From Mycolicibacterium gadium (GTDB lineage Bacteria; Actinomycetota; Actinomycetes; Mycobacteriales; Mycobacteriaceae), in contig NZ_AP022608.1 in the NCBI RefSeq assembly GCF_010728925.1, forward strand, positions 1,488,001-1,552,000: 64,000 nt of DNA. The letters are read 5' to 3'. Below the pieces are notes generated by a model. That model made no database searches and was not told the DNA's origin. It worked only from the letters and a program-made list of their open reading frames with translations. Below, in pieces: positions 39,531 to 50,622 of the stretch. Positions within the stretch are counted from its first letter, which is position 1. Every line of letters begins with the position of its first letter. Made by a program: the position numbers and the translations under genes.

Positions 39531-39646
39531 TTCAAGCTGACACGCCGAGTTCTGATCAGTTGTGCCGAGTCGAGGATTCTGCATCTCCTCGCCGGACGGC
39601 GCGCGCGCGCCTATGGTGGGGTCATCCCGGCTGAAACGGGGCAATC

Positions 39647-39976
39647 TTGCACGAAATGGCGATCACCCAGAGCGTCGTCGAGGCGGTGTGCGAGCACGCT
39701 GCGGGCCGTCGAGTGCACAGCGTCAAACTCGAGGTCGGTGCGCTGTGCGCCGTCGTCCCCGACGCGATGATGTTCTGCTTCGAACTCGCCACGGAGGGCA
39801 CCGCCGCCGAAGGCGCCAGCCTCGAGGTCGAGCTGCGTTCAGGCGAGGCACGATGCCGCACCTGCGACACCGGTTTCGCACTGAACGACTTGATCTTGTT
39901 GTGCCCCTGCGGAAGTGCCGATGTCGACGTCGTCGCCGGCCGAGACCTGAAGATCCTGTCGATGGAAGTGAGTTGA
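39647..39976 (+). CDS. hypA: Hydrogenase nickel-insertion protein HypA (TTG start)
   Basis: A 109-residue HypA. The essential N-terminal MHE (nickel ligands His2 and Glu3) is only obtained by starting at TTG 39647; GAAACGGGG lies upstream. The zinc site has Cys70/Cys73 (CRTC) and Cys86/Cys88 (CPC). HypA works with HypB to deliver nickel to the large subunit. It is the first gene of the hydrogenase cluster, divergent from recA, with hypB two bases downstream. Confidence 0.93.
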   Translation: MHEMAITQSVVEAVCEHAAGRRVHSVKLEVGALCAVVPDAMMFCFELATEGTAAEGASLEVELRSGEARCRTCDTGFALNDLILLCPCGSADVDVVAGRDLKILSMEVS

Positions 39977-39978
39977 GC

Positions 39979-40746
39979 ATGTGTGCAACCTGTGGGTGCG
40001 GCGACGACGGAGCGACGATCACGCTCCCGGGACACGACCATCCCCATGACCACCCTCACGAGCACGATCACCCGCACACCGAGACCATCACGCTGGAGCA
40101 GAAGGTGCTCGCGAAGAACGACGTGCTGGCCGAACACAACCGGCAGTGGCTGGCCGACCGCAGGATCCTGGCGTTCAACATCACCAGTTCACCGGGCGCC
40201 GGGAAGACCACCCTGCTCGAGCGCACCATCCGCCGGCTGGGCGAGCAGCATCAGGTCTCGGTGATCGAAGGTGATCAGGAGACGCTGCTGGACGCCGATC
40301 GCATCACCGCCGCTGGGGCCCGCGCGGTACAGGTCAACACCGGCGCGGGTTGCCACCTGGACGCCGAGATGATCGACCGAGCGCTTCACACCCTGGAGCC
40401 CGACAGCGATTCGTTGCTGTTCATCGAGAACGTCGGAAACCTGGTCTGCCCCGCGCTCTTCGATCTCGGTGAGCACAGCAAGATCGTGGTCATCTCGGTG
40501 ACCGAAGGAACCGATAAACCGCTGAAGTATCCGCACATGTTCGCCGCAGCGGGACTGGTCCTCATAAACAAGATCGACCTGCTGCCGTACGTCGAATTCG
40601 ATCTCGATCTTTGTGCGCAGCATGCGCGTTCAGTCAATCCGGACGTCGAGATCTTACCCCTCTCCGCTACCAAAGGAGACGGAATGGACGCCTGGTTCCA
40701 GTGGATTGACGCGCGCGCAAATGAACTGCGTATGACCGTCGCTTAG
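39979..40746 (+). CDS. hypB: Hydrogenase nickel-insertion GTPase HypB
   Basis: A 255-residue HypB. The N-terminus has the high-affinity nickel motif CATCGC (Cys2, Cys5, Cys7) and a His-rich stretch (HDHPHDHPHEHDHPH, residues 19-33) that may store nickel. The G domain has the P-loop SSPGAGKTTL (residues 70-79), the Cys-His block GAGCHLDAEM that forms the metal site at the dimer interface, and NKID. ATG 39979 follows the hypA stop closely. Both metal-storage features are present, suggesting efficient use of scarce nickel. Confidence 0.95.
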   Translation: MCATCGCGDDGATITLPGHDHPHDHPHEHDHPHTETITLEQKVLAKNDVLAEHNRQWLADRRILAFNITSSPGAGKTTLLERTIRRLGEQHQVSVIEGDQETLLDADRITAAGARAVQVNTGAGCHLDAEMIDRALHTLEPDSDSLLFIENVGNLVCPALFDLGEHSKIVVISVTEGTDKPLKYPHMFAAAGLVLINKIDLLPYVEFDLDLCAQHARSVNPDVEILPLSATKGDGMDAWFQWIDARANELRMTVA

Positions 40747-40862: not shown

Positions 40863-41918
40863 ATGCTAAGTGAAGCTGCCAAAAAAGCGGAAGACACATT
40901 GATCCATGTGCTGTGGATCAACGCCGGCCTCAGTTGTGACGGCGATTCCGTGGCATTGACAGGCGCCACCCAACCAAGCATCGAGGAGATCGCGCTCGGA
41001 GCACTTCCCGGTTTACCCCAAATCGCAGTGCACTGGCCGTTGATCGACTTCGAGTGCGGACCGACGGGTGGCGCGGACGATTTCCTCGAATGGTTCTTCA
41101 AGGCCGACCGCGGCGAGTTGGAACCATTCGTACTGGTTGTCGAGGGGTCGATCCCCAACGAGGACCTGCATCAGGAGGGGTATTGGTGCGGCTTCGGCAA
41201 TGACCCGGCAACCGACCAGCCGATCACCACCAGTGAGTGGCTCGACCGACTAGCGCCCAAGGCGACCGCGATCGTGGCCGTCGGTACGTGCGCGACGTAC
41301 GGCGGCATTCACGCGATGGCTGGCAACCCGACCGGCGCGATGGGTGTGCCGGACTACCTCGGCTGGGACTGGAAGAGCAAGGCGGGCATACCCATCGTGT
41401 GTGTGCCGGGTTGTCCGATTCAGGGTGACAATCTCTCCGAGACGCTGACCTACCTGCTGTACATGGCCACCGGACAGGCGCCGATGATCCCGCTCGACGA
41501 CGCGCTGCGACCCCAGTGGCTGTTCGGCAACACGGTGCACGAGGGGTGCGACCGCGCTGGCTATTACGAGCAAGGCGATTTCGCGACCGAATACGGCTCG
41601 CCGAAATGCATTGTGAAACTTGGCTGTTGGGGACCGGTCGTCAAGTGCAACGTGCCCAAGCGCGGTTGGATCAACGGTGTCGGCGGCTGCCCGAACGTCG
41701 GCGGCATATGCATCGGATGCACGATGCCGGGCTTCCCTGACAAGTTCATGCCCTTCATGGACGAGCCCCCTGGCGGAAAGCTCTCGACCACCGCGTCCGG
41801 CCTGTACGGCTCGGTCATTCGCAATCTGCGCCACGTCACCGGAAAGACCGTCGACAAAGAACCGAAGTGGCGGCACCGGGGCAAGGAACTGACCACAGGA
41901 GCGAAGCGCACCTGGTAG
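40863..41918 (+). CDS. hhyS: [NiFe]-hydrogenase small subunit, group 1h (HhyS)
   Basis: A 351-residue electron-transfer subunit. There is no Tat signal peptide, as expected for group 1h. The proximal-cluster ligands are Cys25, Asp28 (SCDGDS in place of the usual CxxC), Cys143 (GTCATYG) and Cys184 (PGCP): the 3Cys-1Asp ligation described in the structurally solved actinobacterial-type hydrogenase. The medial/distal cluster ligands are in CIVKLGCWGP, GGCPNVGGICIGC and the HEGCDRAG region. This type oxidises trace atmospheric H2 in the presence of O2. The same gene pair lies next to recA in M. smegmatis (Hyd2/Hhy), from memory. Confidence 0.93.
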   Translation: MLSEAAKKAEDTLIHVLWINAGLSCDGDSVALTGATQPSIEEIALGALPGLPQIAVHWPLIDFECGPTGGADDFLEWFFKADRGELEPFVLVVEGSIPNEDLHQEGYWCGFGNDPATDQPITTSEWLDRLAPKATAIVAVGTCATYGGIHAMAGNPTGAMGVPDYLGWDWKSKAGIPIVCVPGCPIQGDNLSETLTYLLYMATGQAPMIPLDDALRPQWLFGNTVHEGCDRAGYYEQGDFATEYGSPKCIVKLGCWGPVVKCNVPKRGWINGVGGCPNVGGICIGCTMPGFPDKFMPFMDEPPGGKLSTTASGLYGSVIRNLRHVTGKTVDKEPKWRHRGKELTTGAKRTW

Positions 41919-41946: not shown

Positions 41947-43743
41947 ATGACAACCACAGTTCCCGGCCCTCAGCACACCAAGAAGGATCCGAGCACGCTC
42001 GTCGACATGTCGTGGGATCCGATCACCCGCATCGTCGGCAGCCTCGGCATCTACACCAAGATCGACTTCGAGAATCGCGAGGTCGCCGAGTGTCACAGCA
42101 CGTCCTCGATCTTCCGCGGCTACTCGATATTCATGAAAGGCAAAGATCCCCGCGACGCGCACTTCATCACGAGCCGCATCTGCGGCATCTGCGGCGACAA
42201 CCACGCCACCTGTTCGTGCTACACGCAGAACATGGCGTACGGCGTCAAACCGCCCAACCTCGGCGAGTGGATCGTCAACCTCGGCGAAGCCGCGGAATAC
42301 ATGTTCGACCACAACATCTTCCAAGAGAACCTGGTAGGCGTCGACTACTGCGAGAAGATGGTCTCCGAAACCAACCCCGGTGTGTTGGCCAAGGCCGAGA
42401 ACACGTTGGCGCCGAACTCCGACGCACACGGCTACCGCACGATCGCCGACATCATGCGGGCGCTGAACCCGTTCACGGGCGAGTTCTACCGCGAGGCCCT
42501 CGTCGTCAGCCGCTGGACGCGAGAGATGTTCTGCCTCATGGAGGGCAAGCACGTCCATCCCTCCACGCTGTATCCCGGTGGCGTGGGCACCGTGGCCACG
42601 ATTCAGCTGATGACCGACTACATGACCCGGCTGATGCGCTACGTCGAGTTCATGAAGAAGGTCGTGCCGATGCACGACGATCTGTTCGACTTCTTCTACG
42701 AAGCGCTTCCCGGCTACGAGAAGGTCGGCTTGCGTCGCACGCTGCTCGGATGCTGGGGCTCGTTCCAGGATCCGGAGGTCTGCAACTTCGCGTACAAGGA
42801 CATGGAGCGCTGGGGTAACGCGATGTTCGTCACTCCGGGTGTCGTGGTCGACGGAAAGCTGGTCACCCACTCGCTGGTCGACATCAATCTCGGCATCCGA
42901 ATCCTTTTGGGCAGCTCGTATTACGACGACTGGACCGATCAGGAGATGTTCGTCCGCAACGATCCGCTGGGCAATCCGGTCGATCGCAGGCACCCGTGGA
43001 ATCAGCACACCAACCCACGGCCCCAGAAGCGCGACATGGACGACAAGTACAGCTGGGTCATGTCGCCGCGCTGGTTCGACGGCAAGGATCATCTCGCGCT
43101 CGACACCGGTGGCGGTCCGCTGGCCCGGTTGTGGAGTACCGCGCTGGCCGGGCTCGTCGACATCGGTTACGTGAAGTCGACCGGCGGCAGCGTGCAGATC
43201 AATCTGCCCAAAACGGCGCTCAAGGGCCCCGTTTCGCTGGAGTGGAAGATCCCCGAACACGGGAGCAACACCCTGGAACGCAACCGGGCGCGGACCTACT
43301 TCCAGGCCTACGCGGCCGCGTGCGCGTTGCACTTCGCCGAGCAGGCGCTGATCGAGATCAGGGCGGGCCGAACGAAGACGTGGGAGAAGTTCACGGTGCC
43401 GGACGAGGCCATCGGCTGCGGCTTCACCGAGGCGGTGCGTGGTGTGCTCAGCCACCACATGGTGATTCGGGACGGCAAGATCGCGAATTACCACCCTTAT
43501 CCCCCGACGCCGTGGAACGCCAACCCACGCGACAGCTACGGCACCCCTGGACCGTATGAAGACGCCGTTCAAGGGCAGCCGATCTTCGAGGAGAACGATC
43601 GGGAGAACTTCAAGGGCATCGACATCATGCGAACGGTGCGCAGCTTCGATCCGTGTCTGCCGTGCGGGGTGCACATGTATCTCGGTGAGGGCAAGACGCT
43701 CGAGAAGCTGCATTCACCGACCCAGTCCGTTACTGGGGAGTGA
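41947..43743 (+). CDS. hhyL: [NiFe]-hydrogenase large subunit, group 1h (HhyL)
   Basis: A 598-residue catalytic subunit. The two NiFe-binding motifs are RICGICGDNHATC (Cys79, Cys82) and DPCLPCGVH (Cys570, Cys573, His576). A 22-residue tail follows His576 and should be removed by the endoprotease encoded at 47563 after nickel insertion. With HhyS it splits H2 into protons and electrons. The gene begins 28 bases after hhyS and is followed by hhyE three bases later. All conserved active-site residues seen are intact, so the enzyme should be functional. Confidence 0.96.
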   Translation: MTTTVPGPQHTKKDPSTLVDMSWDPITRIVGSLGIYTKIDFENREVAECHSTSSIFRGYSIFMKGKDPRDAHFITSRICGICGDNHATCSCYTQNMAYGVKPPNLGEWIVNLGEAAEYMFDHNIFQENLVGVDYCEKMVSETNPGVLAKAENTLAPNSDAHGYRTIADIMRALNPFTGEFYREALVVSRWTREMFCLMEGKHVHPSTLYPGGVGTVATIQLMTDYMTRLMRYVEFMKKVVPMHDDLFDFFYEALPGYEKVGLRRTLLGCWGSFQDPEVCNFAYKDMERWGNAMFVTPGVVVDGKLVTHSLVDINLGIRILLGSSYYDDWTDQEMFVRNDPLGNPVDRRHPWNQHTNPRPQKRDMDDKYSWVMSPRWFDGKDHLALDTGGGPLARLWSTALAGLVDIGYVKSTGGSVQINLPKTALKGPVSLEWKIPEHGSNTLERNRARTYFQAYAAACALHFAEQALIEIRAGRTKTWEKFTVPDEAIGCGFTEAVRGVLSHHMVIRDGKIANYHPYPPTPWNANPRDSYGTPGPYEDAVQGQPIFEENDRENFKGIDIMRTVRSFDPCLPCGVHMYLGEGKTLEKLHSPTQSVTGE

Positions 43744-43746
43744 TAT

Positions 43747-44715
43747 ATGGCCTCGACTGGACACCAGAGCCCGGAGGCACTCGACGACGAAACGCGATGG
43801 CGTTCAGCAGGTGATCGGATTCAGACCCTGCTGGACGCCAGTACGGGCAGCGGAACGATCGTGCGGGAGCGGACCGAGCAGCTCGCCGCCGAGCTGACGG
43901 ACCTCTACGGGGCAGCGCTCCAGCGGATCGTCACCATGGCTTCCGAGTCGGCACCCGAGCTGGTCGAGCGGTTCGCCGCCGACGACCTCGTCGCCAGCCT
44001 CATGCTCGTGCACGGACTGCACCCGCACGGCGTCGAGCGCAGGATCGAGGATGCTCTGGACAGTGTTCGACCGTATCTGGGTTCGCACGGCGGCGACGTC
44101 GCGCTGCTCGGTGTGGTCGACGGCCGAGACGGGCCGGTGGTTCGCCTGCAGTTCGCGGGCAGCTGCAAGAGCTGCCCGTCATCGGCGGTCACCCTCGAGT
44201 TCGCCGTCGAGGACGCCGTGCGTGCCGCCGCCCCCGAGATCGCCTCGATCGAAGTCGTGGCTGCGGCCGAGAGCGCGTCTGGCCTGATCTCGGTGGATTC
44301 GTTGATGAGCCGCGTCCACACGAAGGACACCGTGGACGGCGCGGGCGCCGCCTGGCGCCCCCTTCCTGAGATCGCGGATCTCGATCCCGGCGAGGTCGGC
44401 GGCTTCCTGGTCGCCGGCGTGCCGATCCTGGCCTGCCGAATCGGCGATGATCTGTTCGCGTACCACGACCGGTGCGGTCGGTGTGAGGACTCGATGGCCG
44501 GCGCTGCGCTGCACCGTCCGATGGGCGCACCCATTGGACAGGCGGTCCTGCGCTGTCCGCGCTGTCACGCACATTTCGATGTGGTGCACGCAGGCGCGGG
44601 GCTGGATGACACTGCCGAACCGTCCGCTCGAACGCATCTCGATCCGATTCCCCTGCTCCGTCGCGATGGCGTCCTGTCGGTCGCGGTGCTCGCCGAGGCC
44701 ACCGGGGTGCCGTGA
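43747..44715 (+). CDS. hhyE: Hydrogenase-associated Fe-S protein: NifU-like domain plus four-Cys Rieske-like domain (HhyE-like)
   Basis: A 322-residue protein. Residues about 100-175 form a NifU C-terminal-like domain (RPYLGSHGGDVALLGVV) with CxxC at Cys140/Cys143. Residues about 205-300 form a Rieske-like fold, but the usual CxH...CxxH ligands are replaced by Cys243/Cys246 (CGRC) and Cys270/Cys273 (CPRC), with His274 and His276 next to the second pair. This suggests a four-Cys rubredoxin-like iron (or zinc) site instead of a 2Fe-2S Rieske cluster. In M. smegmatis the corresponding Fe-S protein HhyE is proposed to relay electrons from the hydrogenase. Four bases separate it from hhyL; it overlaps the next gene. 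Confidence 0.82.
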   Translation: MASTGHQSPEALDDETRWRSAGDRIQTLLDASTGSGTIVRERTEQLAAELTDLYGAALQRIVTMASESAPELVERFAADDLVASLMLVHGLHPHGVERRIEDALDSVRPYLGSHGGDVALLGVVDGRDGPVVRLQFAGSCKSCPSSAVTLEFAVEDAVRAAAPEIASIEVVAAAESASGLISVDSLMSRVHTKDTVDGAGAAWRPLPEIADLDPGEVGGFLVAGVPILACRIGDDLFAYHDRCGRCEDSMAGAALHRPMGAPIGQAVLRCPRCHAHFDVVHAGAGLDDTAEPSARTHLDPIPLLRRDGVLSVAVLAEATGVP

Positions 44716-45371
44716 TGGCAGATGTGAGCGCTTTCGACGTGCTGACGCGCATCCGGGCCAACAAGCCCTCCACGCAGCCGGCCGGTGAACGATGTGAGAT
44801 GTGCGCCGAACCGATCGCCGACGAGCACCAGCACGTCGTCAATGTCTCAGCGCGCCAGCTGATGTGCACGTGCCGCGGCTGCTATCTGTTGTTCACCGAC
44901 CCACACGCCAAACTCCGCTACCGCGCGGTGCCCGATCGATATCTCAGCTTCTCCGATTTCTCGTTGGACCGTCGCGCATGGGAAGCGCTCCAGATTCCCG
45001 TCGGCTTGGCGTTCTTCTTCCACAACTCCGACATGGGCAAGACCGTGGCCTTCTACCCGGGCCCGGCCGGAGCCACCGAGTCGGAACTGGACCTCGACGC
45101 CTGGAGCGAGATCAGCGGCGCCGACAGCCGACTGGGCTTGCTAGCCGACGATGTCGAAGCGCTGCTGGTTCGGGTGCCCGATCGAGACCACGTGGATCCC
45201 GAACTCAATGCCCCCGCCGAGTGCTACCTGGTCCCCATCGACGCCTGCTATGAGTTCGTCGGCAGACTGCGAATGTTGTGGCGGGGCTTCGACGGTGGCC
45301 ACGAGGTCCGGGAGTTCGTCGACGAGTTCTTCGAGCGGGTCAAGGCGCGCAGCAAGGTGGCGTCCGCGTGA
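44715..45371 (+). CDS. DUF5947-family hydrogenase-associated protein with Cys cluster
   Basis: A 218-residue soluble protein starting at ATG 44715, overlapping the hhyE stop (TGATG). Near the N-terminus are Cys27/Cys30 (RCEMC), His38/His40 and then Cys51/Cys53/Cys56 (CTCRGC), enough to bind zinc or an Fe-S cluster. The rest is alpha/beta with no catalytic signature; AWEALQIPVGLAFFFHNSDM and the C-terminal REFVDEFFERVKAR helix are the most distinctive parts. I recognise it as the DUF5947 type found in hydrogenase clusters. Possible roles are cluster assembly or electron transfer; nothing is proven. Confidence 0.75.
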   Translation: MADVSAFDVLTRIRANKPSTQPAGERCEMCAEPIADEHQHVVNVSARQLMCTCRGCYLLFTDPHAKLRYRAVPDRYLSFSDFSLDRRAWEALQIPVGLAFFFHNSDMGKTVAFYPGPAGATESELDLDAWSEISGADSRLGLLADDVEALLVRVPDRDHVDPELNAPAECYLVPIDACYEFVGRLRMLWRGFDGGHEVREFVDEFFERVKARSKVASA

Positions 45372-46036
45372 GCAATTTGACGTTCACCGTCGTGGACGTG
45401 GTCGCCGAACAGTTCTCGGTCACGCCACGACTGACCGCGCGCATCGGCATCACGGCCGGCGACACCGAGCCGATCCAGGCGATTGCCCTGCGATGCCAGA
45501 TCCGCATCGAACCGCTTCGCCGGCCCTACTCCGACGAAGAAGCCGCTGGCCTGATCGATCTGTTCGGGCCGCGCGAGCGGTGGGTCAACACTCAACGCAC
45601 GTTCCTCTGGCAACACAGCACCGCGATGGTTCAAGGCTTCACCGGCGTCACCGAGGTGTCCCTGCCGCTGGAGTGCACCTACGATTTCGAGGTCGCGGCG
45701 TCGAAATACCTGCACGCATTGCGCGACGGCGCCATTCCCCTGCTGTTCCTGTTCAGCGGAACGGTGTTCGTGCCGGGCGAACGTGGCTTCTCGGTTCGTC
45801 AGGTGTCCTGGGAATGCGAAGCCCAACACGAGATGCCGGTCGCGGTGTGGAACGACCTCGTGCGGATCCACTATCCCAACGCGGGGTGGGTACGACTCGG
45901 GCACGACACCGTATCCGCACTGGCGGCCTACAAGTCGGCCCGTGGGATGCTCGACTTCGAGGACGCCGTCACCTCCTTGCTCGCGCAAGCCCCGCAATTG
46001 ACCCCGCCGACCCCTGCGCCCGAGGAGGTCCGGTGA
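45368..46036 (+). CDS. DUF6084-family hydrogenase-associated protein
   Basis: A 222-residue protein starting at GTG 45368 inside the previous stop (GTGA). It has no membrane helix and no Cys cluster. Strands dominate the first 140 residues (for example LTFTVVDVVAEQFSVTPRLT, VTEVSLPLECTYDFEVAASK), suggesting a beta-sandwich, followed by a helical C-terminus. I recognise it as the DUF6084 type in actinobacterial hydrogenase operons. Function unknown; constant coupling to its neighbours suggests a subunit or assembly partner rather than a regulator. Confidence 0.72.
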   Translation: MSNLTFTVVDVVAEQFSVTPRLTARIGITAGDTEPIQAIALRCQIRIEPLRRPYSDEEAAGLIDLFGPRERWVNTQRTFLWQHSTAMVQGFTGVTEVSLPLECTYDFEVAASKYLHALRDGAIPLLFLFSGTVFVPGERGFSVRQVSWECEAQHEMPVAVWNDLVRIHYPNAGWVRLGHDTVSALAAYKSARGMLDFEDAVTSLLAQAPQLTPPTPAPEEVR

Positions 46037-47424
46037 AACCCACCTGGGATCGAGCGCGTGCCATCGCCGATGCGGTGCTCTACGAGGGGTACCTGCTCTA
46101 TCCGTACCGAGCGACGTCGTCCAAGAACCAATCCCGCTGGCAGTTCGGCGTGGTCGGACCACCGGGTGCGTCGGACGCGGGCATCGGCGAGGAAGACAGC
46201 ATGTCGGGGCAATTCCTGGTCGACGGTGACAGCGAATTGACCCTCGTCGTGCGTTTCCTGCAGCTGCAGCACCGCCGCGCCGAACGCAATATCGGCGGCG
46301 GAACCTTCGAGCCGGTCGACGAATTGACCAGTGGCTCGCAGACCTGGGTCACCTGGGACGAGGCGGTGGAGCGCGAACTGTCGTTCGGCCCCTTCGATCT
46401 GACCGGCCTCGTGCGGCCGCGCACCCTGGCCATCGAGGTCGCCGAGGGCAGTGAGGCCGAGAACGTGGACGGCGGTCGACTGGTCCGCACCAGATCCGCC
46501 GTCCGGGCCGATCTGACCGTCGCCGTCGAGCGCGAGGCAACCGACCTCTACCGGGTCAGCGTGACGGTGCACAATGCAGGTGCGGCCGCAAGAAACAAGG
46601 AACAAGCCATCGCCACATCGATGATCGGTACCCATATCATTGCCGAAGTGGTTGGCGGAGAGTTCATCTCACTGCTCGAATCGCCGGACTCCGCGGCGGA
46701 CGCGGTTTCGCGCCTGGTCCAGCACCGCTGCTTTCCAGTGCTCGCCGGACGGCCCGGGGAGCGTGACCTGCTGCTGATTTCGCCCATCATTCTCTACGAC
46801 CACCCGGAGATCGCCGAACAGAGCGAGGGCGCGCTGTACGACTCGACCGAGATCGACGAAATCCTCACCCTTCGCGTGATGACGATGACCGATGAGGAGA
46901 AGGCGCAAGCACGCGCCACCGACCCACTGGCTGCGGCGATAATCGACAGATGCGATTCGATGTCGCCGGAGGCCCTGCAGCAATTGCACGGCATCCTGCG
47001 CAATCCGCACGCGCAAGAACCCGGGCTCCCGCCGCGACTCGATGCACTGGATGAGCAGATGAGGTCTGCCGGGCTGATCCCTGAGATCCCAGAGGGCGTC
47101 GATTGGTGGGATCCGGTAGCCGACACCGCCGTCCGCCCCGACGTCGATGCCGTCCTGGTGAACGGCGTGCGGGTGTCCGCGGGCAGCAGAGTCCGCCTGC
47201 GGCCGTGTCGCCGCGCCGACGCGCAGGACATCTTCTTCGCGGGCAAGAGCGCCCGCGTCACTTCCGTCCACGAGGACGTCGACGGCCAGCAGTACGTCGG
47301 CGTCATCGTGGAGGACGATCCAGACGTCGAGATGCCCGACTCGTACGGCCGATACCTGTACTTCACGCCGGACGAGGTCGAACCGATCGACGCAAGAGTA
47401 GTCAGTCCAGATAGGAGTTCATGA
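46033..47424 (+). CDS. 463-residue hydrogenase-cluster protein of unknown function
   Basis: The start is GTG 46033, overlapping the DUF6084 stop (GTGA), with GAGGAGG upstream. The N-terminus has a well-conserved-looking motif, LYEGYLLYPYRATSSKNQSR, then WQFGVVGPPG. A mainly beta middle region follows (residues 60-250), then a helical part, and an SH3-like C-terminus (VRLRPCRRADAQDIFFAGKS, YVGVIVEDDPD). It is soluble, without Cys clusters or nucleotide-binding motifs. I know similar proteins only as unnamed members of actinobacterial hydrogenase clusters. Its size and central position suggest a scaffold or partner of the enzyme complex. Confidence 0.7.
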   Translation: MKPTWDRARAIADAVLYEGYLLYPYRATSSKNQSRWQFGVVGPPGASDAGIGEEDSMSGQFLVDGDSELTLVVRFLQLQHRRAERNIGGGTFEPVDELTSGSQTWVTWDEAVERELSFGPFDLTGLVRPRTLAIEVAEGSEAENVDGGRLVRTRSAVRADLTVAVEREATDLYRVSVTVHNAGAAARNKEQAIATSMIGTHIIAEVVGGEFISLLESPDSAADAVSRLVQHRCFPVLAGRPGERDLLLISPIILYDHPEIAEQSEGALYDSTEIDEILTLRVMTMTDEEKAQARATDPLAAAIIDRCDSMSPEALQQLHGILRNPHAQEPGLPPRLDALDEQMRSAGLIPEIPEGVDWWDPVADTAVRPDVDAVLVNGVRVSAGSRVRLRPCRRADAQDIFFAGKSARVTSVHEDVDGQQYVGVIVEDDPDVEMPDSYGRYLYFTPDEVEPIDARVVSPDRSS

Positions 47425-47543
47425 TGGATGTAATTGGTTGGTTGGCAACCGGTGTCGTGGCCGTCGTCGTTGTCGGCGGGGTGGTGATCGGACTCCGCTC
47501 CATCCCGGACGTGCGACGGTACATGAAGATACGCAACATGTAG
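47421..47543 (+). CDS. 40-residue single-pass membrane protein, DUF6893-like
   Basis: A very short gene with GGAG upstream, starting at ATG 47421 (or 47424) over the previous stop. The peptide is one hydrophobic helix (GWLATGVVAVVVVGGVVIGL, residues 6-25) and a short basic tail (RSIPDVRRYMKIRNM), so the tail should face the cytoplasm. It matches the small DUF6893 proteins. Since neither hydrogenase subunit here has a membrane anchor or signal peptide, it is a candidate anchor for the enzyme complex or electron relay; that role is inference. Confidence 0.7.
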   Translation: MMDVIGWLATGVVAVVVVGGVVIGLRSIPDVRRYMKIRNM

Positions 47544-47562: not shown

Positions 47563-48054
47563 ATGACAGCCCGCATCCTGGTCGCCGGAATCGGCAACAT
47601 CTTCCTCGGAGACGACGGCTTCGGCCCCGAGGTGATGCGTCATGTCGTCGGTCGGGACCTAGGCGCCGATGTGCACCCGGTGGATTATGGAATCAGGGGT
47701 ATGCACCTCGCCTATGACCTCCTCGAGGAGTGGCACGCGCTCGTCCTCGTCGATGCACTGCCCGATCGCGGAACACCCGGGACACTCCACATATTCGAGG
47801 CTGACCACGAAACCCTCTCATCCACCGCCGGTCTCGAAGCGCACAGCATGGACCCGGCGGCCGTGTTCGCCACACTCAGGGCACTGGGCGGGACTGCACC
47901 CAAGACAATCGTCATCGGCTGCGAAGTCGAGAACATCGAGGAGGGCATGGGTCTGTCGGACCCGGTCGCCGCGGCGGTGCCGGTGGCGGTCGCGGCCGTC
48001 TACGACGTCCTGGCCGACCTTGCCGTCCGCTCGCCGGCACCTGCGGAAGGCTGA
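47563..48054 (+). CDS. Hydrogenase maturation endoprotease (HyaD/HupD/HybD family)
   Basis: A 163-residue protease that removes the C-terminal tail of the large subunit once nickel is in place. The family opening GIGNIFLGDDGFGPEV supplies Glu23; Asp64 (VLVDALPDRG) and His94 (EAHSMDP) complete the nickel-recognition triad seen in HybD. Its substrate should be the 22-residue tail of HhyL. It lies between the small membrane protein gene and hypC. Confidence 0.92.
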   Translation: MTARILVAGIGNIFLGDDGFGPEVMRHVVGRDLGADVHPVDYGIRGMHLAYDLLEEWHALVLVDALPDRGTPGTLHIFEADHETLSSTAGLEAHSMDPAAVFATLRALGGTAPKTIVIGCEVENIEEGMGLSDPVAAAVPVAVAAVYDVLADLAVRSPAPAEG

Positions 48055-48058
48055 AGCG

Positions 48059-48337
48059 ATGTGTCTCGGGATCCCAGGACAGGTGGTCCGGATGCTGGAG
48101 GGCTACGGTGATCAGCTGGCCCTGGTGAATGTCGCGGGCGAGAACCGCAAAGTGAACATCGGCATGCTGCCCGAGGAGACATTCGACGCCGGTGACTGGG
48201 TGATCATCCACATGGGATTCGTCGTCGAGAAAACCGACAAAGCAGGTGCCGACGCCGCGATGGCCGGACTGGAGATGATGGGCAGGGGCGGCGAACCAGG
48301 AGAAACCCCCGGCCAGATCGACAGGGCGTTCCCATGA
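48059..48337 (+). CDS. hypC: HypC/HupF-family maturation chaperone, copy 1
   Basis: A 92-residue HypC. The N-terminal MCLGIPG holds the essential Cys2, which carries the Fe(CN)2CO unit with HypD and docks on the large-subunit precursor. The C-terminal 25 residues (GGEPGETPGQIDRAFP) are an extension not seen in copy 2. Its TGA overlaps the hypF start by four bases. Confidence 0.93.
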   Translation: MCLGIPGQVVRMLEGYGDQLALVNVAGENRKVNIGMLPEETFDAGDWVIIHMGFVVEKTDKAGADAAMAGLEMMGRGGEPGETPGQIDRAFP

Positions 48338-50622
48338 CCGGCCGACGCAGGCTCCGTGTCTGCGTACACGGCGTCGTTCAGGGAGTCGGGTTCCGGCCGT
48401 TCGTCTACGCGTGCGCGGCCGCGTTCGGCCTGTCCGGATCCGTACGCAATGACAGTTCCGGTGCCGTGATAGAGATCGAGGGTGGCGCCGACCAGATCGA
48501 CGACTTCCTCACCCGCCTACGTGACCGACCGCCGCCGCTGGCGGTGATCGAATCGATCGAGACCGCCGATGTCCCGGTTGTCGGCGGAACCGGCTTCACC
48601 ATCGCGGATACGTCCCGATCAGCCACGGGCCGCACACTGGCCTCCCCCGACGTCGCCATGTGTGCCGAATGCGCCGCCGAGCAGAGTGATCCGACCAACA
48701 GGCGTTACCGGCACGCATTCGTCAACTGCACCAACTGCGGCCCGCGATTCACCATCATCGCGTCGCTACCCTACGACCGCGCGTCCACGACCATGGCGCC
48801 CTTCATGATGTGCGCCGACTGTGCCGCCGAATACCACGATCCAGCTGATCGGCGATTCCACGCCCAACCCGTGTGCTGTCCGAAATGCGGACCCACGCTG
48901 CACTACCGGGCCCGCGACGGTCGGTCGGCCGAATCCGAAGCCGCGCTGCGGCAGGCGCGGCGACTGCTGAGCGACGGCGGTATCGTCGCCGTCAAGGGCA
49001 TCGGCGGATATCACCTCGCCTGCGATGCCGCCAACGAGCGCGCGGTGAAAGAGCTGCGCATTCGAAAGCGGCGTGGCGACAAACCGTTCGCGCTGATGGT
49101 CGCGGACATGACGACCGCACGCACCATCGCCGAGATCGATGACGGATCGGCGCGGCTGCTGGCCGGTGCGCAACGGCCGATCGTGCTGATGCCGCGCCGC
49201 GACGATGCCGCGGTCGCCGACGCCGTGGCCCCGCACAATTCGGACCTTGGCGTCATGCTCGCCTACACGCCCTTGCATGCGCTGCTGTTCGGCCTACCTG
49301 GTGACGAACCGGGCCCCGTCGCACTCGTGATGACATCGGGCAACCTCGGTGGAGAGCCGATCTGCTACGCAGACGGCGATGCGCTGGAACGACTTTCGCA
49401 GCTGGCCGATGCATGGCTGATGCACGACCGGGAGATCCTGGTTCCGTGCGACGACTCCGTCGTGCGGGTCGTCGACCAAGCCGAATTGCCGATCAGGCGC
49501 TCCCGCGGATACGCACCGCTGCCCGTCGCGCTGCCGGTTGCGCTGCCGCCCACCCTCGCGGTCGGCGCCGACCTGAAGAACACACTGGCAGTGGCAGACG
49601 GGAAGTACGCGTGGCTCAGCCAGCACATCGGCGATATGGACGACCTGTCGACGTTGGCGGCCTTCGACTCGGCACGAGGCCACCTGCAGGCACTCACCGG
49701 CGTCGAACCGGAAGTGCTTGTCGCCGATGCCCATCCGCTGTACCGGTCCGCCGCATGGGCGCACCGAAACTCTCGAGGTCGGCCCGTCCGGACGGTCCAG
49801 CACCACCACGCTCATATCGCCTCGGTCATGGCCGAACACGGCCTGGACGGCTCGCGACCGGTACTCGGATTCGCATTCGATGGAACCGGCTACGGGCCCG
49901 ACAATGCCGTGTGGGGCGGCGAGGTGCTCCTTGCCGATTACAAGGGCTACCGGCGGCTTTCACACCTGCGGTATGTGCCGTTGCCCGGGGGGGACGTCAG
50001 CGTCCTGCGACCGTACCGGATGGCTCTGGCGCACCTGTGGGCGGCGGGAATGGCCTGGGACGAGGACCTCGCGCCCGTACGGGCATGCCCGACGGATGAG
50101 CGGCGCGTACTGGCCCACCAGCTAGAGACCGGCCTGGGTTGCGCGCCGACGTCCAGTATGGGACGGCTCTTCGACACCGTTGCGTCGTTGGTCGACGCGC
50201 GGCAGGTTGTCGCATACGAGGCGCAGACGGCCATCGAGCTGGAGGGGATGTCCCGCGACGCGGCCTGTGGCACAGCCACTTACGACTTCTCCATCGACCT
50301 CTCCCAATCACCTGCGATGATCGATCCGACACCTGTCATCAAGGCGGTCGTCGACGACGTCCGATCCGGAATGACCGCAGGTGTGGTCGGCGCACGCTTC
50401 CACCGAGCCGTAGCGGATTTGATCGTGCGCTTGGCCACCACCGTGGTGACCGATTACCCCACTGTCGCACTGTCGGGGGGCGTGTTCCAAAACGCATTGC
50501 TACTACGCCTGGCCCTGCGCGGCCTGCGGGACAGGGGATTCGACGTGATCACTCACCGTTTCGTGCCACCGAACGACGGCGGGATCGCACTGGGCCAACT
50601 ATTGGTGGGGAATTCCTCATGA
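48334..50622 (+). CDS. hypF: Carbamoyltransferase HypF
   Basis: A 762-residue HypF making the cyanide ligands from carbamoyl phosphate. In order: acylphosphatase domain (GVVQGVGFRPFVYA), two zinc fingers (Cys110/113/132/135 and Cys160/163/182/185), the YrdC-like domain (VKGIGGYHLACDAANERAVK) and the Kae1-like domain (QHHHAHIASVMAEHG, FDGTGYGPDNAVWGGE, ALSGGVFQNALLL). It passes the carbamoyl group to the C-terminal Cys of HypE. Length is standard. Confidence 0.96.
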   Translation: MTGRRRLRVCVHGVVQGVGFRPFVYACAAAFGLSGSVRNDSSGAVIEIEGGADQIDDFLTRLRDRPPPLAVIESIETADVPVVGGTGFTIADTSRSATGRTLASPDVAMCAECAAEQSDPTNRRYRHAFVNCTNCGPRFTIIASLPYDRASTTMAPFMMCADCAAEYHDPADRRFHAQPVCCPKCGPTLHYRARDGRSAESEAALRQARRLLSDGGIVAVKGIGGYHLACDAANERAVKELRIRKRRGDKPFALMVADMTTARTIAEIDDGSARLLAGAQRPIVLMPRRDDAAVADAVAPHNSDLGVMLAYTPLHALLFGLPGDEPGPVALVMTSGNLGGEPICYADGDALERLSQLADAWLMHDREILVPCDDSVVRVVDQAELPIRRSRGYAPLPVALPVALPPTLAVGADLKNTLAVADGKYAWLSQHIGDMDDLSTLAAFDSARGHLQALTGVEPEVLVADAHPLYRSAAWAHRNSRGRPVRTVQHHHAHIASVMAEHGLDGSRPVLGFAFDGTGYGPDNAVWGGEVLLADYKGYRRLSHLRYVPLPGGDVSVLRPYRMALAHLWAAGMAWDEDLAPVRACPTDERRVLAHQLETGLGCAPTSSMGRLFDTVASLVDARQVVAYEAQTAIELEGMSRDAACGTATYDFSIDLSQSPAMIDPTPVIKAVVDDVRSGMTAGVVGARFHRAVADLIVRLATTVVTDYPTVALSGGVFQNALLLRLALRGLRDRGFDVITHRFVPPNDGGIALGQLLVGNSS

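Follow-up and report, generated by a model that had tools for sequence, protein, structure and literature searches.

Group 1h hydrogenases (Hhy/Hof) are among the enzymes held responsible for the soil uptake of atmospheric H2 (PMC7174314). According to the same source, membrane association raises the affinity of these enzymes, whose subunits are without an anchor, and no group 1h membrane anchor was known in 2026 (PMC13332983). The route to the membrane and to the quinone pool was stated to be open in 2019 (PMC6883350), in 2020 (PMC7174314) and again in 2026 (PMC13332983). Here, we consider four genes standing behind hhyE in the hhy operon of Mycolicibacterium gadium, within a stretch of 64,000 nucleotides, hereafter the window (contig NZ_AP022608.1, positions 1,488,001-1,552,000 of a 5.96 Mb genome in a single contig). 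They encode a DUF5947 protein, a DUF6084 protein, a 463-residue protein, named ORF463 after its open reading frame (ORF), and a DUF6893 microprotein. We tentatively propose, without holding it to be probable, that the four genes form a dedicated accessory module docking the soluble core of small and large subunits (HhyS/HhyL) at the inner surface of the membrane. The proposal is based on the occurrence of the genes with group 1h, on gene order, on the ligands of DUF5947, on the helix and tail of DUF6893 and on two predicted folds.

Closest described systems

The best described relative is the hof operon of Cupriavidus necator H16 on pHG1 (hofK hofG, PHG066-069 and the protease gene PHG070). 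It has the same order as the window from the small subunit to the protease, and a DUF6893 homologue is present as an ORF of 33 codons (pHG1 66753-66854). It differs by a short HhyE without CxxC and by the location of the DUF6893 homologue 3' of the protease gene; its ORF463 homologue is about 33% identical to that of the window. PHG066-69 are listed as hof operon ORFs of unassigned role (PMC4377017). The hhy operon of M. smegmatis (MSMEG_2722-2718 and following genes) is of the same kind, with hhyE and a downstream PHG067 homologue, as judged from its description in PMC6883350, where MSMEG_2717/PHG067 is also proposed as a candidate electron acceptor. Conserved hypothetical genes are reported in R. 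equi, M. smegmatis and C. necator (PMC13332983), and hhaABC of Thermomicrobium roseum is counted among the known unexplained gene blocks (PMC6776052).

The gene block is therefore already known but unexplained, and the idea of DUF5947 as acceptor is already in print. The operon of the window is an ordinary orthologue of the known group 1h operon and its interest lies in comparison. Apparently new are the spread and the tail of DUF6893, the contrast between the ligands of DUF5947 and those of HhyE, the DrmA-like region of ORF463, and the use of other gene pairs as a control for overlaps. No paper naming DUF5947 or DUF6893 was found in the literature searched.

Another high-affinity hydrogenase, Huc (group 2a), resembles Hhy in having a NifU-type E protein and a membrane-reaching part of its own. 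Menaquinone is described as being reduced by Huc directly, within HucS (PMC10017518). HucM matches DUF1641 and is thus of another family than DUF6893, the comparison of the two proteins being limited to family matches.

A gene block tied to the group 1h enzyme

Profile searches for each family were made in a sample of 296 Actinomycetota genomes. DUF5947 was found in 26 of them, DUF6084 in 27, ORF463 in 29 and DUF6893 in 26. Among the matches listed, 24 genomes have an HhyL of at least 65% identity across 500 residues or more, and 23 of these carry DUF5947; six further genomes, two of them with DUF5947, show HhyL fragments only. With HhyL judged from the same matches, DUF5947 is present in one of the 266 remaining genomes (G284, at the end of a 6.9 kb contig). 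The corresponding Fisher p is 8e-32 for 290 genomes, with the six fragment genomes excluded and kinship uncorrected. In 12 genomes, every large subunit listed is 35-45% identical, and DUF5947 is absent from all of these genomes; one of them, G311, has DUF6084, ORF463 and DUF6893 on a contig beginning inside DUF6084. Within the host's family, DUF5947 is found in 31/101 genomes.

A plasmid collection gave a concordant distribution. HhyL matches were found in 124 records. DUF5947 and ORF463 both occur in all of the 12 records that reach at least 71.7% identity (DUF6084 in 10 of the 12) and in none of the 112 others. Three of the 12 records are second copies and were excluded, leaving nine distinct plasmid operons. 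The block occurs also in Cupriavidus and Methylocystis (Alpha- and Betaproteobacteria). Thus, it is tied to the group 1h enzyme and is a hydrogenase-specific module, as the reading made from the sequence alone (hereafter the sequence-only reading) had supposed. Wide occurrence of these proteins without hydrogenase genes was not seen in the sets searched, apart from one orphan ORF463. This intact gene (L204, 6272-7549) adjoins a two-component system in G502, a 99% complete genome with no HhyL among the matches listed; its product keeps 50 of 55 invariant residues, five being changed.

The host genome also holds a Huc-type operon (L182, 8842-16633), encoding a HucM-like protein (DUF1641), HucS, HucL, HucE, a TPR protein, an NHL-repeat protein and HypF. 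No homologue of DUF5947, DUF6084, ORF463 or DUF6893 was found in this operon, and the four genes are thus not general partners of high-affinity hydrogenases.

Losses from the block were also observed. Genome G085, of the same genus, retains the remnant of a deleted hhy operon (L168, 7293-7909), with a fragment of about 43 residues of hhyS, scraps of ORF463, an intact DUF6893, the protease and hyp genes; hhyL, hhyE, DUF5947 and DUF6084 are missing. In genome G141, HhyL is present but DUF5947 gave no match, the contig ending in DUF6084. At this locus (L164), HhyE and DUF6084 are joined in one open frame through an Asp/Arg-rich stretch, DUF5947 being missing between them, which is either a real deletion or a misassembly at the contig end.

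Metal ligands in DUF5947 and HhyE

In the window, the DUF5947 gene occupies positions 44712..45371 of the forward strand and encodes 219 residues from a GTG codon, with an alternative ATG start at 44715. The protein, a PHG067 homologue, matches its Pfam family with E=7e-74 (247.7 bits against a cut-off of 25). Among the matches returned, its closest relatives are mycobacterial, with 94-96% identity, in Mycolicibacterium tusciae and in a metagenome-assembled genome of Mycobacteriaceae. Seven ligands, C28, C31, H39, H41, C52, C54 and C57 (C5H2), were found in 17/17 diverse members. C52, C54 and C57 are present at 117/117 loci and the four others at 116/117, the exception being a gap. In an alignment of 121 rows, C28 is nearly invariant (90% or more) and the other six ligands are invariant. 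The motif is kept in all nine distinct plasmid operons, and among the four proteins invariant Cys/His ligands are found in DUF5947 only.

The AlphaFold2 model of DUF5947 (pLDDT 86, pTM 0.80) places the ligands at a turn, a hairpin (residues 40-44 and 49-53) and a short helix (residues 55-59), which may be read as a zinc-finger-like site of the treble-clef type. Matches of DUF5947 to zinc-finger regions of solved structures are local and weak. Zinc would be at least as likely in this site as an iron-sulphur (Fe-S) centre.

HhyE (43747..44715, forward strand) is a NifU-domain protein (PF01106, E=2e-19) with three CxxC motifs in the host genome, and its gene had been taken for that of an electron relay. 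The motifs are absent from HhyE in eight of the nine distinct plasmid operons, namely those of C. necator (PHG066), Methylocystis and six Streptomycetaceae. We also surveyed 125 loci, mostly mycobacterial and hence not independent, L001-L020 and L105-L138 being excluded as too short. In this survey, whose set overlaps the plasmid set, three CxxC were counted in 100 of 115 HhyE and none in eight; one HhyE scored as having two (L175) has both outside its matching part. Moreover, strains Kam1, SolV and V4 are reported to lack hhyE (PMC6688271), and the group 1h enzyme of SolV is reported to oxidise H2 (PMC7174314). A truncated HhyE retaining the NifU-like domain is mentioned in PMC6883350; no mention of cysteine loss within that domain was found in the available part of this source. 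As many HhyE are without CxxC, and the C5H2 set of DUF5947 is found in every plasmid operon, a relay role of HhyE is doubtful, and the view of HhyE as a universal Fe-S relay of group 1h was rejected or at least weakened.

A microprotein with an invariant tail

The DUF6893 gene (47421..47543, forward strand; alternative ATG start at 47424) encodes 40 residues, with one hydrophobic helix and a basic tail ending RRYMKIRNM. It matches PF21833 with E=3e-15 (56.5 bits against a cut-off of 24.6). Its helix, long enough for a membrane span, is the strongest hydrophobic segment of the operon, with a 19-residue mean of 2.46, the next being 1.87. Homologues have 32-40 residues and one hydrophobic helix each. 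All of the 62 distinct tails have RY at -8/-7 and Met at -1. Since sequences of this kind went into the profile, the motif is in part selected for, whereas its spacing from the stop codon is not.

The profile matches 103 of the 125 surveyed loci. A looser pattern matched 101 times in 126 loci and never in the same sequences when reversed, which argues against a chance ORF. Nor is DUF6893 a mycobacterial oddity, since it is present in other Actinomycetota, Streptomyces among them, in Cupriavidus and in Methylocystis. Eight of the nine distinct plasmid operons have a copy, seven being found by profile and that of Methylocystis by pattern and reading; none was found by profile or pattern in the S. 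cattleyicolor plasmid operon. DUF6893 is unlisted in the five gene tables at hand (C. necator, Methylocystis, M. intracellulare, Kitasatospora and S. fungicidicus); the PLSDB tables are incomplete, so that it may be annotated elsewhere. A purine-rich stretch precedes the start in 4/4 inspected cases. The 296 genomes hold 31 matches, of which 28 lie beside hydrogenase genes or remnants of these (in one case a weak hypC match only), one lies on a contig of 4.3 kb that has no hydrogenase genes and two are inside long unrelated frames.

DUF6084 and ORF463

The DUF6084 gene (45368..46036, forward strand) encodes 222 residues matching the Pfam family with E=3e-90 (302 bits against a cut-off of 25). 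The protein has no invariant Cys/His.

ORF463 (46033..47424, forward strand) has no Pfam family above cut-off. Its predicted fold, and weakly its profile, match over residues 19-255 a region in the N-terminal half of DrmA from the DISARM system (7s9v/7s9w), which would correspond to a jelly roll. The PADLOC DrmA matches are restricted to profile positions 76-310 of 1018. DrmA is a helicase, whereas ORF463 is a protein of 463 residues in a hydrogenase operon, in which a Pfam scan found no helicase family match (RecA domains). The N-terminal half of DrmA has been described as a chassis (PMC9142583). A predicted SH3-like domain follows at the C-terminus (about 370-454), its nearest match being PetP of cytochrome b6f. 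The invariant stretches 18-35 and 251-276 fall where the model of the lone protein is unreliable, as expected for partner-binding segments. Two separate ORF463 matches occur at L152, L155, L158, L166 and L167. As the first gene has only about 330 residues at L152 and L155, the two domains can apparently be encoded apart, on different genes.

Gene order and overlaps

The four ORFs behind hhyE are intact, and the short overlaps on which the sequence-only reading had relied were confirmed. All four junctions from hhyE to DUF6893 overlap by 4 bases with the first start codon; the second start codon gives -1 (TGATG) at hhyE/DUF5947 and at ORF463/DUF6893. A gap of 3 bases separates hhyL from hhyE, which has no upstream overlap.

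In the 125-locus survey, made with a start-choice tolerance of 8 bases, an overlap of 1-11 bases is kept at hhyE/DUF5947 in 98/113 loci, at DUF5947/DUF6084 in 95/113 and at DUF6084/ORF463 in 106/112. Outside Mycobacteriaceae (33 loci, tolerance of 11 bases), the counts are 20/25, 14/25 and 22/27, respectively. These kept overlaps exceed chance. Conserved coupling, as had been claimed, thus holds for the first three junctions but not for ORF463/DUF6893, where the overlap is kept in just 29 of 86 loci, DUF6893 being placed 3' of the protease gene at other loci.

That strict coupling would mean fixed stoichiometry is contradicted by the gene pairs used as controls. HhyS and HhyL, which form a heterodimer, have overlapping genes at 0/106 loci (0/24 outside Mycobacteriaceae), against 19 of 20 adjoining loci for ORF463 and the maturation protease (20/20 in the count outside Mycobacteriaceae) and 40/74 loci for hypC/hypF. 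Hence, overlap does not mark subunits. Short overlaps occur also at L104 between the annotated hypC/hypD and hypB/hypF.

Gene order was counted on profiled genes only. When the two genes of a pair occur together on the same strand, DUF5947 follows hhyE in 113/113 cases and DUF6084 follows DUF5947 in 113/113. The order hhyL-hhyE-DUF5947-DUF6084-ORF463 is kept, and the hyp genes shift in place and strand. A second operon type (L103, L141, L142, L175, L205) has ORF463 5' of hhyS and is without DUF6084, DUF5947 being retained.

The remaining genes of the operon

The order of the operon, entirely on the forward strand, is hypB, hya RNA, hhyS, hhyL, hhyE, DUF5947, DUF6084, ORF463, DUF6893, maturation protease, hypC and hypF. 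The longest ORF for hypB, encoding the nickel incorporation GTPase, spans 39562..40746 (TIGR00073, E=4e-84). The HypB model match begins at residue ~140-176 of this ORF, whose N-terminal ~140 residues fall outside HypB models; the true start is probably further inside. Immediately 5' of hhyS lies a member of the hya RNA family of cis-regulatory RNAs (RF02992, 40789..40860, 85.2 bits against a gathering score of 56.8). No match at the gathering score was found in seven other hydrogenase-bearing loci (L101, L102, L104, L139, L144, L151, L182).

The small subunit is encoded by hhyS (40863..41918; PF14720, PF01058) and the large subunit by hhyL (41947..43743; PF00374). The best solved relative of HhyL is HofG (5aa5, 1076 bits), followed by a hydrogenase at 161 bits, and its sequence assigns it to group 1h/5. 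A small subunit, a NifU-type E protein and maturation genes accompany HhyL, as in group 1h operons. Downstream of DUF6893 are the hydrogenase maturation protease (47563..48054; TIGR00072, E=9e-35), hypC (48059..48337; TIGR00074 above cut-off, scanned as 48062-48337) and hypF (48334..50622). The latter was named from its sequence features, an acylphosphatase-like N-terminus and a carbamoyltransferase, and from its agreement with the annotated hypF positions at L101 and L104. On a plasmid of M. intracellulare subsp. chimaera (NZ_CP012886.2; L179, 15006-39545), the hhy operon is immediately followed by annotated genes for NADH-quinone oxidoreductase subunits A to N.

Possible functions of the module

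We infer the role of each module protein as follows. DUF6893 would be a single-pass membrane protein whose basic tail faces the cytoplasm, in agreement with the positive-inside rule, and this tail would plug into the assembly of HhySL and accessory proteins. ORF463, with its jelly roll and SH3-like domain, and DUF6084 would be cofactor-free scaffold proteins, and DUF5947 would be a small metal protein of zinc-finger-like topology tying the scaffold to HhyS. With HhyS at the membrane, its distal cluster would pass electrons on to menaquinone, either directly or by way of DUF5947. HhyE would help to load or brace HhyS, its own metal sites being dispensable in parts of the family. Docking would account for the membrane helix and the invariant tail, for the location of the genes behind hhySL and for the reported dependence of affinity on membrane association (PMC7174314). 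A more specific form of this proposal may be imagined, which we put forward as a possibility only, on the doubtful side: DUF6893 would be the missing group 1h anchor, a single helix whose Met-ending tail is held in a scaffold of ORF463, DUF6084 and DUF5947 carrying HhySL, this scaffold re-using a DISARM-related jelly roll.

Several observations weigh against docking. The C. necator enzyme is reported to be cytoplasmic (PMC7174314), and this organism carries the whole set, including the DUF6893 homologue. The hypothetical proteins encoded in the P. methylaliphatogenes operon, taken here to be partly the present families, are reported to be missing from strain SolV, and the SolV enzyme is still described as membrane-associated and was purified as HhyS and HhyL only (PMC7174314). 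The SolV case, with hhyE missing as well, shows that catalysis does not require the complete module. In addition, no DUF6893 was found in the ORF463-first operons L103, L141, L142 and L175, which are also without DUF6084, and genome G290 has DUF6893, the protease and hyp genes with no HhyL among the matches listed. Finally, the DrmA and SH3 matches of ORF463 are remote and show no function.

Other explanations may be envisaged. The four proteins and HhyE could be subtype-specific assembly factors, by analogy with HyaE/HyaF and HoxO/HoxQ of group 1d. HhyE would deliver Fe-S clusters, DUF5947 would be a zinc-finger chaperone, and DUF6084 and ORF463 would hold the apo-subunits until the protease acts, all of them leaving before the enzyme works. 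Such a mechanism, which we consider conceivable but rather doubtful, would account for the position of the block between the structural genes and the protease gene, which it overlaps at nearly all loci where the two adjoin, for the NifU domain and for the two-subunit composition of the native SolV enzyme (PMC7174314). It is also in keeping with the weak local likeness of DUF5947 to zinc-finger regions, and assembly is named as an alternative role for HhyE in PMC6883350. However, it leaves the membrane helix of DUF6893 unexplained, the loss of HhyE cysteines in many operons would be odd for a cluster donor, and on native gels HhyE was found together with HhyL and HhyS (Cordero 2019, cited in PMC6883350).

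The sequence-only reading had looked to the four genes for the missing electron module. One of the four does offer invariant Cys/His ligands, the other three have none, and the idea had already been printed (PMC6883350, PMC4377017). In this scheme, a C5H2 iron or Fe-S centre of DUF5947, the accessory protein with a kept ligand set, would carry the electrons of HhyS to the quinone pool, the other proteins positioning it. We find this unlikely, because the secondary structure and the weak local matches suggest a zinc-finger-like site, because SolV respires H2 although accessory proteins are reported missing (PMC7174314), and because in Huc the quinone is reduced in HucS itself (PMC10017518); moreover, the HhyL of G141 is without a DUF5947 match, on a contig which ends soon after. 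Lastly, the genes could be compactly packed neighbours with no joint role, as the short overlaps between other hyp genes at L104 might suggest. This is very improbable because the genes closely accompany group 1h, in Alpha- and Betaproteobacteria as well, and because hhyL, hhyE, DUF5947 and DUF6084 were deleted jointly in G085. Altogether, the earlier interpretation is partly supported.

Concluding remarks

The present data argue against a universal Fe-S relay role of HhyE, as well as against deducing stoichiometry from gene overlap. They narrow the question to single genes that can be removed, that of a microprotein of 32-40 residues and that of DUF5947, whose ligand set is kept throughout. 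If the anchoring proposal were true, the group 1h enzyme would need neither a cytochrome b nor a HucM-type stalk to reach menaquinone. This would bear on an enzyme which lets soil bacteria live on the trace H2 present in air.

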